From Macrococcus epidermidis (GTDB lineage: Bacteria > Bacillota > Bacilli > Staphylococcales > Staphylococcaceae), in assembly GCF_003259695.1 (NCBI RefSeq), contig NZ_PZJH01000001.1, positions 434,001 through 498,000 of the forward strand: a stretch of 64,000 nucleotides of DNA, written 5' to 3'. A program made the position numbers and the translations under genes. This document shows, one piece after another, positions 30,270 through 60,257 of the stretch. The stretch's first letter is position 1, and each line of letters begins with the position of its first letter. A model generated the notes under the pieces. That model ran no database searches. It was not told the DNA's origin and saw nothing but the letters and a program-made list of their open reading frames with translations.

Positions 30270-31550
30270 ATGAACTGGATTAAAACACATTTTGAAATAC
30301 TAATTGGCTACTTTATAGCTGCCATAAGTATATTTTTGGGTATTTTTATTATTTATCATGGCAATCAGATTGCGCATTTTAAAGATATAGATATCAATAA
30401 ATTACATATGTATAACTTTTTTGATTTTATTAATATTTATATTTTTGAATTAATTAAACTATTAAGCCATTATATCAAAAATTATCCTGCTATTTACGGC
30501 GTTCTATTAATTATTATAGGTTTATCATTTATCTATATTTCAAGAAAGCTTAAAGAAACGACCATTTTTGATAAAACGATCGCATACTATTATCTTTTAG
30601 CAGCAAGTATCATTTTGCTTGTAATCATCATCTTTTTATTTGAAGTATATGGTATATTTTCATTGTTTTATTTATTATTTTTTATCTTTCTTGTTTATTA
30701 TACGATTAATCGCCGTAAACTCAATGAGCATTACCGTAAATTTCATTTTGTGGTATTGATTGGAGTATACGGGATAGCTTATTTTATGTCACAACTTGCT
30801 GTCTATGATAATTTAAATAAAGAAAAAGTATCACCGTTAGATGTGATGAGTATTAACTTTTATTTTATAGTACTACTTTTAATTGCAGCATTATGTTTGT
30901 TTAATTATGTTTTCCTGAAAAGAACATTACCAACAAAAAATGATGATCATGAAAAATTAAGTCGCCGCAATAAAAAGAAAAGAGATTTACAAATCAATCA
31001 GAAGTTACAGGAAGGAACAAATTCAACGATTGAAAAACTATCAACAACGTCGTTAAAGGTTGATGAAAAAATAATATTATGCTTTAAAAGAGCGATTAAT
31101 TCTATTAAAGATAAAATTAATCTTGAAGAAGAAGACATACCTTCGTGGTTTAAACGTCCAAGATGGATAAGGTCATTTCATATTGAAATTTTACTTAGTG
31201 CATTAATGTTCGTCATTACAGTTATTGAACTGAATAATCGTAATATCTTATTTGATGCAAGTAAATTTAATGTCGTAAAAATGCAATATTTCTATGAATG
31301 GATTAATCTTGTTGGACTACTGATGATTATCATAGCATATATTTATTTCTCTATTAGAATTCATTTCAAAAGAAAAGGATACTTTGGTCAACTTTTTACA
31401 ATTTCTTTTTTGACGCTAAAAATTGTGACGAGTATTTATTTAATGGTATTTAAAGGTATAAACTTAGCACTGTTTATCCCACCTATTTTATTGATGATGT
31501 TTATGTTTGTTGTACCGCTGTATATTATTCACATACGTAAACGATATTAA
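30270..31550 (+). CDS. Polytopic membrane protein, positional counterpart of S. aureus AuxA
   Basis: A 426-residue protein with about ten membrane helices: six in the first 225 residues, then a basic cytoplasmic loop (KRTLPTKNDDHEKLSRRNKK, to about residue 300), then four more. No catalytic motif is seen. In S. aureus the gene between purD and the ptsHI region is auxA, reported to help stabilise lipoteichoic acid and affect beta-lactam tolerance. The assignment here is by position and topology only. GAGAGGTGG precedes ATG 30270. Confidence 0.55.
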   Translation: MNWIKTHFEILIGYFIAAISIFLGIFIIYHGNQIAHFKDIDINKLHMYNFFDFINIYIFELIKLLSHYIKNYPAIYGVLLIIIGLSFIYISRKLKETTIFDKTIAYYYLLAASIILLVIIIFLFEVYGIFSLFYLLFFIFLVYYTINRRKLNEHYRKFHFVVLIGVYGIAYFMSQLAVYDNLNKEKVSPLDVMSINFYFIVLLLIAALCLFNYVFLKRTLPTKNDDHEKLSRRNKKKRDLQINQKLQEGTNSTIEKLSTTSLKVDEKIILCFKRAINSIKDKINLEEEDIPSWFKRPRWIRSFHIEILLSALMFVITVIELNNRNILFDASKFNVVKMQYFYEWINLVGLLMIIIAYIYFSIRIHFKRKGYFGQLFTISFLTLKIVTSIYLMVFKGINLALFIPPILLMMFMFVVPLYIIHIRKRY

Positions 31551-31591
31551 TACGCGTGATATAACACACCGCTTAATTAATTTGTGAAATT

Positions 31592-31624
31592 ATTGTTGTG
31601 TACTACAACAATACGGTATATAAT
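31592..31624 (+). promoter_or_regulatory. Promoter with overlapping dyad for a candidate small RNA
   Basis: TTGTGT (31596-31601), a 17-base spacer and a perfect TATAAT (31619-31624). A dyad of ATTGTTGT (31592-31599) and ACAACAAT (31605-31612), with a 5-base centre, covers the -35, as a repressor operator would. Confidence 0.6.
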
Positions 31625-31629
31625 CAAAG

Positions 31630-31712
31630 AGTAAACATTAACCCATGGGGATGGGAGTTAATTTTTCCGAATATATATCACGCAGTTGCCTCTGATGGCA
31701 ACTGCCGTTTTT
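31630..31712 (+). ncRNA. Candidate small regulatory RNA, about 85 nt
   Basis: The expected start lies near 31630, seven bases after the -10. The first hairpin has UUAAC-CCAU (31639-31647) pairing with AUGG and GUUAA across a 2-base bulge, exposing a GGGG loop. A single-stranded AU-rich linker follows. The RNA ends at a 9-bp terminator stem (31682-31690 with 31697-31705) and a T run at 31708-31712. The only frame inside (16 codons from 31648) has no ribosome binding site. A G-rich loop of this type could pair with C-rich motifs of mRNAs or other small RNAs. It could also be a leader of the downstream gene, although the terminator argues for a separate transcript. Confidence 0.55.
31682..31712 (+). 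terminator. Terminator of the candidate small RNA
   Basis: GCAGTTGCC, loop TCTGAT, GGCAACTGC, then CG and five T. Confidence 0.65.
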
Positions 31713-31750
31713 GTGTTATAGTAAAATTATCAAACTAAAGGAGTACAAAC

Positions 31751-32920
31751 ATGAAAAGCGTATTACTCAAAAAAAATAAACAGGAAAAATTTAAACAAGG
31801 TTATCTTTTAATAGAAAATGATGATATTTATCAAAAAGATGATATCCATGAGGGAGAATTATTTATTGTTCAAAGTGATACCGGCCAGCATTTAGGTACA
31901 TTTTATTGTGGATTACAAAATAGAGGATTTGGCTGGAAAGTTAGTGAAGGCTATGTATCAGCTTTAGAGACATCATACTTTATTAATTTATTTGAAACTG
32001 CTAAAGAATTTAGAGCGTCTTTATTCAATGCGACTGATACAAATGCATTTCGACTATACAACGGTGAGGGCGATGGATTAGGTGGCTTCACGATAGATAG
32101 TTATGATGGACATTTATTAATTCAGTGGTATTCAAAAGGAATCTATCAGTTTAAAACTGTGATTGTAGAAGCAATTCAACAAATCTTTGAATATAAAAGT
32201 ATATTTGAAAAACTTAGATATGATAAAAATGTGACGACTCACCAAATAACTGATGAAACTATTGAATTTCCAATAATGATCTTAGAGAATAATCTCAGTT
32301 ACATGATTGATTTAAATGACGGTGCTATGACCGGTCTATTTCTGGATCAACGAGATGTACGTAAGAAATTATTGAAGCTTGAGACGAAAGGAAATGACTT
32401 CCTGAATCTATTTGCTTATTCGGGTGGCTTTTCTATTGCTGCAGCAACGAATAGCTATAAAACTACAAATGTGGACATTGCAAAGCGATCTATTGAACTG
32501 ATGGAACAGAATTTCGCTATTAACGAATTACCTTTAGAATCTCAGAAGTTTTATACTTTAGATGCGTTCGATGCATTGAAATATTTTGCGCGTCATCTTA
32601 ATACATTTGATGCGATCATCATAGATCCACCTAGTTTTTCACGTAATAAGAAAAAAGTATTCTCTGTAAAAGATAATTATCATGAACTCATAGAGGCTGC
32701 TGTTCCGCTCGTGAACTATAATGGTTATTTAATTTTATCGACGAATGCTTCTAATGTACCGTTAAAACAATTTAAAAAAATGATAACAGATACGCTAACG
32801 CCATTATGCCAATTTGAAATTGAATCAATTATGGGTCTTCCTAAAGACTTTAAAACAACTGATAAATATAAAGCTTCGAAATATTTAAAAGTAATTACAA
32901 TTAAAATCTTATCAGAATAA
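31751..32920 (+). CDS. Class I SAM-dependent rRNA methyltransferase, RlmI/RlmK-like
   Basis: A 389-residue protein with a PUA-like N-terminal region (1-80), a central RlmI-like domain (RLYNGEGDGLGGFTIDSYDG) and a C-terminal Rossmann methyltransferase. TGLFLDQRDVR, FLNLFAYSGGFSIAAA (SAM loop) and AIIIDPPSFSR (catalytic DPPSF) match the RlmI family, which makes m5C in 23S rRNA. Homologues elsewhere modify cytosine or guanine, so the target base is not assured. AAAGGAG precedes ATG 31751. Confidence 0.8.
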   Translation: MKSVLLKKNKQEKFKQGYLLIENDDIYQKDDIHEGELFIVQSDTGQHLGTFYCGLQNRGFGWKVSEGYVSALETSYFINLFETAKEFRASLFNATDTNAFRLYNGEGDGLGGFTIDSYDGHLLIQWYSKGIYQFKTVIVEAIQQIFEYKSIFEKLRYDKNVTTHQITDETIEFPIMILENNLSYMIDLNDGAMTGLFLDQRDVRKKLLKLETKGNDFLNLFAYSGGFSIAAATNSYKTTNVDIAKRSIELMEQNFAINELPLESQKFYTLDAFDALKYFARHLNTFDAIIIDPPSFSRNKKKVFSVKDNYHELIEAAVPLVNYNGYLILSTNASNVPLKQFKKMITDTLTPLCQFEIESIMGLPKDFKTTDKYKASKYLKVITIKILSE

Positions 32921-37001: not shown

Positions 37002-38345
37002 ATGGATGGTGTTGTGTTAAGTCGTTTATTAACAGCGATGACGTTAGGTTTTCATATTATTTTTGCCACAATAGGTGTTGGAATGCCACTGATGATAATG
37101 ATTGCGGAAGGGTTAGGCATAAAATATAATAATCCGAAATATACGGCAATGGCAAGACGTTTTGCAAAAACATTTACAATCACAGTAGCTGTAGGTGTTG
37201 TTACAGGAACGATTATCGGTTTACAGCTGTCATTATTATGGCCATCTTTTATGCAGTTGGGTGGTCAGGTTATAGCATTACCACTCTTTATGGAAACATT
37301 TGCATTCTTTTTTGAGGCAATTTTCTTAAGTATATATTTATATACATGGGATCGCTTTAAAAATAAATGGACACATTGGTTACTTAATATACCAATTATT
37401 ATCGGTTCAACATTAAGCGCATTATTTATCACAAGTGTAAATTCATTTATGAATACACCGGAAGGATTCAAAGTAAAAAATGGAGTGCTAGTAGATATTG
37501 ATCCAATTCAAGCAATGTTAAATAGCTCATTTTTAGTGCGTTCTTTCCATGTTGTAACAACAGGTGGAATGACAATAGCTTTTTGTATCGCAAGTGTAGC
37601 AGCCGTAAAATTATTACGTAATAAATTTCCAGAAGATAAAGATTATCACATGAAATCTTTAAAAATGGCGATGATTGTAGGGTTGATTTTTAGTTTATTG
37701 ACGATATTAGCGGGTGATTTATCAGCGAAGTTCCTGCACAATGAACAACCGGAAAAATTAGCGGCAATGGAATGGCATTTTGAAAGTGATAAAAATGCTG
37801 ACTTAGTCTTATTTGGTGTTCTTGATGAAAAAACACAGGAAGTAAAAGGCGCAATAAAAATACCTGGTATGTTAAGTTTTCTTGCTGATAACAGTTTTGA
37901 TACGACTGTTAAAGGATTAGATGAAATACCTAAAGATGAACAACCCCCTTTGATCATTCATTATTTCTTCGATCTTATGGTGTTCTTCGGTATGTTTAGT
38001 TTTGCTGTCAGTGTACTATATGTAATATTAAATAAAGTTAAAAATAAGTTAGCAACGCATAATTTCATGCTATATCTCATTGCTTTAACTGGACCTCTGT
38101 GCATGTTAGCTATTGAATTTGGATGGTTCCTAGCTGAGATGGGACGTCAACCATGGTTATTACGAGGTTATATGAAAGTTGCTGAAGGTGCTACGCATGC
38201 AGATGGTGTGAGCCTTGTGCTTGTTGCTTTTGGATTACTTTATCTTGTTTTAGGTTTTTCATGTAGCTACGTATTACTCCGTATGTATAAAGATAAGCCG
38301 GCACAATTTGATGTAGAGCAATTTGCCAAAGGGGGTGCCAAATAA
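37002..38345 (+). CDS. cydA: Cytochrome bd ubiquinol oxidase subunit I
   Basis: A 447-residue membrane oxidase subunit with about nine helices that passes electrons from menaquinol to O2 at low oxygen. LSRLLTAMTLGFHIIFATIGVG holds a heme histidine (His18), and RSFHVVTTGG and EFGWFLAEMGRQPWLLRG are conserved; GRQPW is diagnostic. The Q-loop is of the short type usual in Firmicutes. AGGAGG precedes ATG 37002. Overlaps cydB by one base. Confidence 0.94.
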   Translation: MDGVVLSRLLTAMTLGFHIIFATIGVGMPLMIMIAEGLGIKYNNPKYTAMARRFAKTFTITVAVGVVTGTIIGLQLSLLWPSFMQLGGQVIALPLFMETFAFFFEAIFLSIYLYTWDRFKNKWTHWLLNIPIIIGSTLSALFITSVNSFMNTPEGFKVKNGVLVDIDPIQAMLNSSFLVRSFHVVTTGGMTIAFCIASVAAVKLLRNKFPEDKDYHMKSLKMAMIVGLIFSLLTILAGDLSAKFLHNEQPEKLAAMEWHFESDKNADLVLFGVLDEKTQEVKGAIKIPGMLSFLADNSFDTTVKGLDEIPKDEQPPLIIHYFFDLMVFFGMFSFAVSVLYVILNKVKNKLATHNFMLYLIALTGPLCMLAIEFGWFLAEMGRQPWLLRGYMKVAEGATHADGVSLVLVAFGLLYLVLGFSCSYVLLRMYKDKPAQFDVEQFAKGGAK

Positions 38346-39364: not shown

Positions 39365-39376
39365 CGGAGGGGTAGT

Positions 39377-40039
39377 ATGGAAAAAGAATTTGTAGTTATC
39401 GGTTTAGGACGTTTTGGTGGGAGCATTGTTAAAGAATTAAATGCATTGGATATGGACGTAATGGCTATAGATTCTGATGAAGCGCGTGTCAATGAATATG
39501 CAGATATTGCAACGCATGCTGTTATTGCAGATACTACTGATGAGAACGTATTAAAGAGTTTAGGTATACGTAACTTTGATCACGTGATCGTTGCGATAGG
39601 AGATAACATACAGGCAAGTATATTAACAACGTTAATCTTAAAAGATATCGGTGTAAAAAAAGTTACAGCAAAAGCGCAAAATGATTATCATGCGAAAGTA
39701 TTAAATAAGATTGGTGCAGATACAGTTGTTCACCCTGAACGAGACATGGGAAGAAGAATTGCACATAATGTAGCAAGCTCTTCTGTATTGGATTATCTTG
39801 AACTTTCAGATCAGCATTCGATCGTTGAGATACGTGCCGGAGAAACACTAGCTGGCAATTCTATACTTGATTTAGATATACGTGCAAATTATGGATTAAA
39901 TATTATTGCAGTTAAACGTGGTAAAGAAATAATTGTATCACCAGATCCAAGTGTAGTTATTGAAAATGGAGATATATTAATTATGATTGGCCATGATAAT
40001 GACTTAAATCGTTTTGAGAAAAAGATTATTAATGACTAA
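39377..40039 (+). CDS. ktrC: Potassium uptake regulatory subunit, KtrA/KtrC (RCK) family
   Basis: A 220-residue cytoplasmic RCK protein. The N-terminal Rossmann domain has FVVIGLGRFGGSIVKEL and ends near residue 130; the RCK-C domain (about 135-218) binds c-di-AMP in staphylococcal KtrC. It gates a KtrB-type channel encoded elsewhere. Position right after cydAB matches ktrC in S. aureus. GGAGGGG precedes ATG 39377. Confidence 0.88.
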   Translation: MEKEFVVIGLGRFGGSIVKELNALDMDVMAIDSDEARVNEYADIATHAVIADTTDENVLKSLGIRNFDHVIVAIGDNIQASILTTLILKDIGVKKVTAKAQNDYHAKVLNKIGADTVVHPERDMGRRIAHNVASSSVLDYLELSDQHSIVEIRAGETLAGNSILDLDIRANYGLNIIAVKRGKEIIVSPDPSVVIENGDILIMIGHDNDLNRFEKKIIND

Positions 40040-58412: not shown

Positions 58413-60257
58413 ATGACAAATTTTAGAGAAGATGTTCGTAATATTGCAATTATCGCCCACGTTGACCATGGTAAAACTACCCTTGTTGATGAATTATTAA
58501 AACAATCAGGTACATTCCGTTCAAATGAACATGTTGAAGAACGTGCGATGGATTCGAATGATATCGAAAGAGAGCGTGGTATCACGATCTTAGCAAAGAA
58601 CACAGCGATCGATTATAAAGGAACGCGTATCAACATTCTGGATACTCCAGGGCATGCTGACTTCGGTGGTGAAGTAGAACGTATCATGAAGATGGTAGAT
58701 GGTGTATGTTTAGTTGTAGATGCATATGAAGGAACTATGCCTCAAACACGTTTCGTATTAAAGAAAGCATTAGAACAAAATTTAAAACCTGTAGTGGTAG
58801 TAAATAAAATAGATAAACCTTCAGCGAGACCTGAAGAAGTTTTAGACGAAGTATATGATTTATTTATTGAATTAGAAGCAAATGATGAACAGTTAGATTT
58901 CCCTGTAGTATATGCTTCTGCAATTAATGGTACTGCTAGTCTTGATGCGTCGACTCAAGATGAAAACATGCAAAGCTTATACGAAACGATTATCGATTAT
59001 GTACCAGCACCAGTTGATAACCGTGACGAGCCATTACAATTCCAGGTTGCTTTATTAGATTACAATGATTATGTTGGTCGTATCGGTATTGGCCGAGTAT
59101 TCCGTGGAACGATGGAAGTAGGACAACAAGTTTCGTTAATAAAGATTGACGGAACAATTAAAAATTTCCGTGTTACTAAAATCTTTGGTTTCTTCGGTTT
59201 AAAACGTGTTGAAGTTGAAAAAGCATATGCTGGTGATTTAATTGCCGTATCTGGTATGGAAGACATTAACGTAGGTGAAACGGTTACTCCAGTAGATACT
59301 CCGGAAGCTTTACCGATCTTACGTATCGATGAGCCTACATTACAAATGACTTTCTCAGTTAACAATTCTCCGTTTGCAGGTAAAGAAGGTAAATTTGTAA
59401 CTGCGCGTAATATTCAGGACCGTTTAGAATCACAACTTGAGACAGACGTATCATTACGCGTTGAGTCTGTTGGACCTGATAGCTGGACTGTTTCTGGGCG
59501 TGGAGAATTACATTTATCTATCTTAATCGAAAACATGCGTCGTGAAGGGTTTGAATTACAAGTTTCTAAACCAGAAGTTATCGTAAAAGAAATCGATGGT
59601 AAGAAATATGAGCCATATGAACGCGTTCAAATTGATGTACCGGAAGAAAATACTGGATCTGTAATTGAATCTTTAGGAACACGTAAAGGTGAAATGGTTG
59701 ATATGGTTAACAGTGGTAATGGTCAAACACGTTTAATCTTCAATGTACCTGCACGTGGATTAATCGGTTACCGTACTGAGTTCATGTCTATGACACGTGG
59801 TTATGGTATCTTAAACCACACATTTGATGAATATCGTCCATTATTAAAAGGTCGTATCGGCGGACGTCGTAATGGTGTATTAGTTTCTATGGATAAAGGG
59901 GTAGCTTCAACATATGCTATCTTAGCTTTAGAAGACCGTGGTGTAAACTTTATGGAACCGGGAACTGAAGTATATGAGGGTATGATTGTTGGTGAAAATT
60001 CACGTGATAATGACTTAACAGTAAATATCACTAAAGTAAAAGCTGCTAATAACATTCGAAGTGCTACTAAAGAACAAACAACAACAATGAAAAAACCAAG
60101 AACTTTAACGTTAGAAGAAGCTTTAGAATATTTAAATGAAGATGAATTAGTTGAAGTTACACCTGAATCAATTCGTTTAAGAAAGAAAACGTTAGATAAA
60201 TCTCAACGTGAAAGAGAGCAAAAGAAAGCAAAAGCAGCGATGCAAGAGGAGGAGTAA
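58413..60257 (+). CDS. typA: Ribosome-associated GTPase TypA/BipA
   Basis: A 614-residue translational GTPase related to [18 protein letters not shown] (P-loop), [11 protein letters not shown] (switch I), [11 protein letters not shown] (G3) and [10 protein letters not shown] (G4) are intact, followed by domain II, two EF-G-like domains and the BipA-specific C-terminus with a Lys/Glu-rich tail. It acts in 50S subunit assembly and stress adaptation, especially in the cold. Confidence 0.95.

Follow-up and report, generated by a model that had tools for sequence, protein, structure and literature searches.

Results

The spacer between auxA and the methyltransferase gene

The window, by which we mean the whole 64-kb stretch of DNA that was analysed, carries an auxA-like gene followed on the same strand by a gene for a class I rRNA large-subunit methyltransferase (Table 1), whose NCBIfam RlmI-type matches fall below the equivalog cut-offs. 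The spacer between them holds a compact unit made up of a promoter, a short G-rich RNA and an intrinsic terminator. The initial annotation had described a promoter, a dyad, a hairpin with a GGGG loop and a terminator here, and each was recovered within one or two bases of the stated place. It had also predicted an 85-nt RNA with one hairpin and a terminator; both elements were found, and the length is here about 82 nt. Judged by sequence and conservation, this discrete sRNA gene is real, with its own promoter and terminator, as in the stand-alone trans-acting layout that had been proposed.

Table 1. Features in and around the auxA–methyltransferase spacer (positions in the window).
Feature	Position	Strand	Remarks
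auxA-like gene (lipoteichoic acid stability factor)	30270-31550	+	Upstream neighbour; NCBIfam NF047417.1, 336 bits (cut-off 250)
8-bp dyad ATTGTTGT-N5-ACAACAAT	31592-31612	+	Overlaps the -35 box; perfect only in the three closest species
sRNA promoter TTGTGT–17 nt–TATAAT	31596-31624	+	TTG-N17-TA..T in 24/24 orthologues
Degenerate cre-like element AGTAAACATTAACC	31630-31643	+	At the predicted start site; 8/11 specified positions
Predicted sRNA	31631-31712	+	Start inferred about 7 nt past the -10 box; end is the T run
Hairpin 1, AUUAACCCAU-GGGG-AUGGGAGUUAAU	31637-31662	+	Predicted fold; inner stem unchanged in nine genomes
Anti-RsaE seed GGGGAUGGGAG	31647-31657	+	Exact reverse complement of RsaE CUCCCAUCCCC
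Intrinsic terminator, 9-bp stem GCAGUUGCC/GGCAACUGC and U tract	31682-31712	+	Covaries in relatives
Extended -10 box TGTTATAGT of the methyltransferase gene	31714-31722	+	Separate promoter; TATAGT/TATAAT kept in 24/24
Class I rRNA large-subunit methyltransferase gene (RlmI-like, PUA and SAM)	31751-32920	+	Downstream neighbour; Pfam PF10672, PF17785

The promoter boxes are TTGTGT at 31596-31601 and TATAAT at 31619-31624. Its match to the consensus does not by itself lift the promoter above chance: a scan of a 1.7-kb stretch listed 11 promoter-like sites, with 10.3 expected, and the sRNA promoter was not among them. The spacing is exactly 17 nt in all 24 orthologues. The terminator is above chance, with four terminator-like sites in the same 1.7 kb, all in the sRNA element, where 0.4 were expected; its nine pairs lie at 31682-31705, followed by TTTTT at 31708-31712. 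The GGGG loop of hairpin 1 is at 31647-31650, and its G's are 88–99% unpaired in the predicted fold, which is moderately better than that of dinucleotide shuffles (z = -2.1; 6/200). A family model, R1, matches 31631-31712 as its sole significant hit in the whole genome. Rfam gave no sRNA family in the window at the gathering score, nor in the local 500 bp at E values up to 10. No match to the exact hairpin was seen in the viral contigs scanned, and a 9-mer pattern search over genomes was too unspecific to discriminate.

Could the element be a 5' leader or attenuator of the methyltransferase gene, with the terminator governing read-through? It shares the gene's strand and has a conserved position 5' of the start codon. 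However, a -10 box of the methyltransferase gene (TGTTATAGT, TGGTATAGT or TATAAT) is found directly 3' of the sRNA terminator in 24/24 genomes, which argues against a leader. Furthermore, the predicted folds contain no alternative antiterminator pairing, the terminator varies in sequence while its stem is kept, and Staphylococcus and the outgroup families retain the methyltransferase gene without the element. We consider a leader very unlikely. Downstream of the methyltransferase gene, a Mammaliicoccus-type genome has a sub-threshold match to Rfam S35 (Staphylococcus sRNA 35) at L023:2102-2276 (55.6 bits; cut-off 69).

Conservation and covariation

The RNA occurs at the same locus in 24/24 sampled non-Staphylococcus genomes of the family, which belong to four genera and have methyltransferase identities from 97% down to 48%; all 24 spacers carry the promoter, a G-rich RNA and a terminator. 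The genomes are grouped as g1, Macrococcoides (the genus of the window, including M. goetzii, M. bohemicum and M. caseolyticum), g2, g4 and g5, Macrococcus (including Macrococcus bovicus and M. brunensis). The names Mammaliicoccus (g4) and Staphylococcus (g3) were deduced from gene content and distribution.

The terminator stem shifts in sequence among nine Macrococcoides genomes while pairing is kept, and seven of the ten pairs show changes on both sides. These amount to 27 cells with both-side changes, compared with 9.4 after shuffling; none of 500 shuffles reached 27, and the signal was lost when the partner strand was slid. Compensatory changes in relatives, which had been named as a check on the prediction, are thus seen in the terminator stem. 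The inner stem and loop of hairpin 1, CCAUGGGGAUGG, are invariant in these nine genomes, so covariation is silent there. The block CCATGGGGATGGG is likewise invariant across the nine, with variable flanks, and the most conserved portion of the RNA is the anti-RsaE seed. RNAalifold on 23 sequences found almost no common structure; as modelled, the fold is conserved within genera and not across them.

It is extremely unlikely that the unit encodes a small peptide, such as MGMGVNFSEYISRSCL. An ATG does lie within the hairpin in Macrococcoides, but it has no Shine-Dalgarno sequence ahead of it, the frame differs in length and sequence among close relatives, and many species have no frame at all. 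We rejected this candidate on the variation and absence of the frame.

Complementarity to RsaE

The G-rich loop had been suggested to act on C-rich motifs such as those of RsaE-type RNAs. The match proved to be to RsaE itself, as an exact 11-nt complement that spans the loop and the 3' arm of hairpin 1, and target prediction with the loop points to the 3' C-rich seed of RsaE. The RsaE gene (RF01820) of this genome, about 84 kb away, scores 93.8 bits (cut-off 79); it contains GAAAAAUUUCUCCCAUCCCCUUUGUUU, and its 3' C-rich region reads AAAAAUUUCUCCCAUCCCCUUUGUUU. The 11-mer CTCCCATCCCC occurs exactly twice in the 2.49-Mb genome, once in RsaE and once on the antisense strand of the sRNA gene. Within the window, no GC-rich stretch of at least 9 nt besides the seed is exactly complementary to RsaE. 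The RsaE model also gives a weak Rfam match of 14.8 bits on the antisense strand at the sRNA locus, because of this complementarity.

The best ungapped helix between the sRNA and RsaE has an energy of -26 kcal/mol, calculated with a table of stacking energies entered by hand, and was reached by 0/150 dinucleotide shuffles. Relative to the two monomers, the predicted dimer ensemble is lower by 18.5 kcal/mol; the RsaE 3' seed and the loop G's of the sRNA are both predicted to be unpaired. When 3118 stretches of the window were compared, duplex formation with RsaE was energetically strongest for the stretch that begins at 31612.

The predicted pairing site is the same 3' C-rich region of RsaE in 24/24 species. 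The match extends to 17 pairs (GGGGAUGGGAGAAAUUU, counting G-U) in M. caseolyticum-type genomes; the g2 and g5 version is GAUGGGAGAA, and a hairpin loop there holds a second GGGG, and in g4 the match is divided into AAGGGGAU and GGGGGAAAUUUU. Since the seed is nearly invariant in both partners, the duplex shows no compensatory changes. In the ungapped-helix test, at most 1/150 shuffles reached the native value in 13/24 species; the result in Macrococcoides, 0 or 1 of 150, was called decisive. The test is weak in most Mammaliicoccus-like and several Macrococcus genomes (4–16/150), since strong pairing is to be expected between any G-rich and any C-rich RNA; in the Mammaliicoccus-type genomes (7–16/150) much of the energy is accounted for by composition.

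We also weighed a trans-acting sRNA that pairs chiefly with C-rich sites in mRNAs, for which the RsaE match would be secondary. S. aureus RsaI has direct mRNA targets as well, and five more sites in the genome match CTCCCATCCCC with one mismatch. Against this, once the sRNA gene itself is set aside, RsaE alone in the genome offers an exact 11-nt complement, and the best-conserved part of the RNA coincides with the anti-RsaE seed. Furthermore, ribosome-binding sites are G-rich rather than C-rich. Thus, action chiefly on mRNAs is quite improbable. A caveat for the RsaE reading is that a G-rich RNA could encounter C-rich partners besides RsaE.

RsaE was present in 37/37 family genomes searched. 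Second, weaker RsaE-like matches of 43 and 34 bits, possibly paralogues, were seen in two Mammaliicoccus-type genomes (G011:C3:288145-288265 and G014:C105:13390-13523, respectively). In the window, two ribosome-binding regions are candidate RsaE targets by their complementarity to the RsaE 5' C-rich region UACCCCUUUG. One is CAAAGGGG, before the ATG at 38345 of a cydB-like gene (38327-38345), and the other is GGAGGGGTAGTATG, at the ATG at 39377 of a KtrA/TrkA-like gene (39366-39379); both genes were named from their translations. A further 9-nt complement of the 5' C-rich region, AAAGGGGTA, lies at 59895-59904.

The promoter region

The initial annotation had read the dyad as operator-like, which did not hold up: it is perfect only in the three closest species, and perfect inverted repeats of 8 bp with loops of 3–8 number 53 in the 64-kb window, so the dyad alone is unremarkable. 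A Rex half-site had also been noted. Of the Rex operator TTGTGAA-N4-TTCACAA only the left half, TTGTGAAATT, is found, at 31582; no TTCACAA partner at the right spacing occurs in any Macrococcoides promoter, including that of the window, and the operator was rejected. At 31582-31599, TTGTGAAATT is followed by a ATTGTTGTG-type repeat, an arrangement that Macrococcoides genomes conserve 5' of the -35 box. It is possibly the site of some regulator, other than a full Rex site.

A cre-like site at the predicted start, which the initial annotation missed, is present in the relatives. It fits 10/11 specified positions in 11 species (g4, g2 and two of g5) and 9/11 in four more, of M. caseolyticum type. 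The site in the window has lost the central CG. Sites with 8/11 positions number 339 on one strand of the window, so this score is not above chance, and CcpA control of the window's copy is doubtful on sequence grounds. The ccpA gene is present. The g2 genome (L021, about 1250-1330) has a second cre-like sequence, AAAGCGCTTGCAAA, which overlaps the -35 box, and a palindrome, GTAAACGTTTAC, at the start site.

Distribution and relation to RsaI

RsaI (RF01775) scores above the Rfam cut-off in 84/108 family genomes, taken to be Staphylococcus, and in 0/24 genomes that hold the sRNA. The distribution of the sRNA among the sampled genomes is thus the exact complement of that of RsaI, a second feature that the initial annotation missed. 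In 12/12 Staphylococcus-type genomes examined, the methyltransferase spacer lacks the sRNA, and auxA is still upstream of the methyltransferase gene in 6/6 of those checked. Outgroup families have RsaE with an identical seed and nothing at the auxA–methyltransferase locus; in one of them (L125) a 425-aa frame, AuxA-like in length and place, abuts the methyltransferase gene. The RsaE/RoxS seed hardly changes across the order.

This distribution, together with the shared presumed target, the G-rich motifs and the apparent CcpA link, would also fit a diverged and relocated RsaI orthologue, with the same function and another history. However, the RF01775 covariance model (cut-off 50 bits) has no match in the window, its best score in this genome being 21.1 bits, elsewhere, and the model built from the sRNA family does not detect RsaI. 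The neighbouring genes and the placement of the cre differ, and Staphylococcus keeps the auxA–methyltransferase spacer without the RNA. Orthology with RsaI is therefore improbable.

Discussion

The auxA-locus RNA is very probably an anti-sRNA that sponges RsaE/RoxS, as its sequence and conservation suggest. We infer its transcription, its pairing in the cell, its effect on RsaE targets and its control by CcpA. In the proposed mechanism, pairing would nucleate between the exposed GGGG loop and the unpaired UCCCC seed at the 3' side of RsaE; the 3' arm of the hairpin, AUGGGAG, would next extend the helix along CUCCCAU, for at least 11 continuous pairs in all. This would mask the seed that RsaE uses on Shine-Dalgarno sites and free the RsaE targets from repression. 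In most of the family, the cre-like site at the start suggests that CcpA would repress the sponge under preferred sugars. When the preferred sugar is absent, the sponge would be made, RsaE sequestered and the metabolic targets released. In the clade of the window, where the cre-like site has decayed, CcpA control may be lost or replaced.

The simplest history, we infer, is a gain of the sRNA at the base of the family, followed by its replacement by RsaI in Staphylococcus. A broader reading, about as likely as not, is that sponges of RsaE/RoxS arose independently at least three times in Bacillota, as RosA in Bacillus, this RNA in Macrococcus/Mammaliicoccus and RsaI in Staphylococcus, with RsaI displacing the older auxA-locus sponge and the CcpA link being kept. 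As part of this reading, the exchange would be a non-orthologous replacement of one anti-sRNA by another.

RsaE/RoxS is among the very few regulatory RNAs that bacilli and staphylococci have in common. Sponges of it have been reported from Staphylococcus, as RsaI, and from some bacilli, as RosA (PMC8216469), and we found no report of one in the lineages between them. The auxA-locus RNA, which is absent from Rfam, would fill that gap. Because its distribution among the sampled genomes is exactly complementary to that of RsaI, the idea of a sponge that is needed and repeatedly replaced is directly testable in food-associated Macrococcoides strains.

Comparison with known sponge RNAs

The inferred target, RsaE/RoxS (RF01820), is a C-rich regulator, of opposite polarity to its G-rich sponges. 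Functionally, the auxA-locus RNA would resemble RsaI and RosA, yet it appears to be a separate RNA family. RsaI/RsaOG of Staphylococcus (RF01775) is likewise a stand-alone sRNA, and it is linked to CcpA. In S. aureus its GGGG motifs base-pair with the C-rich seeds of RsaE, for which it acts as a sponge, and the 3' UCCCC of RsaE is essential (PMC9217828). The window's RNA also has a GGGG motif complementary to that 3' seed. However, RsaI is about 145 nt long and carries a long C/U-rich region and two G-rich motifs that lie apart from each other, whereas the RNA described here is about 82 nt, with one contiguous seed directed only toward the 3' C-rich region and without a second, separate GGGG for the RsaE 5' seed. 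RsaI also lies at a different locus, without detectable sequence homology to this RNA, and its cre is upstream of or over the -35 box, whereas the cre-like site of the auxA-locus family is on the start.

RosA (S345) of Bacillus subtilis is likewise a G-rich, stand-alone sponge, of the RsaE homologue RoxS; it is repressed by CcpA and has its cre at -1 to +12 (PMC8216469), which is also where the auxA-locus family has its cre-like site. The published description sets RosA apart, since it is about 229 nt long, heavily processed, has three G-rich regions and also binds FsrA. Its chief contact is the 5' C-rich region of RoxS (CRR1), whereas the auxA-locus RNA is predicted to pair with the 3' region.
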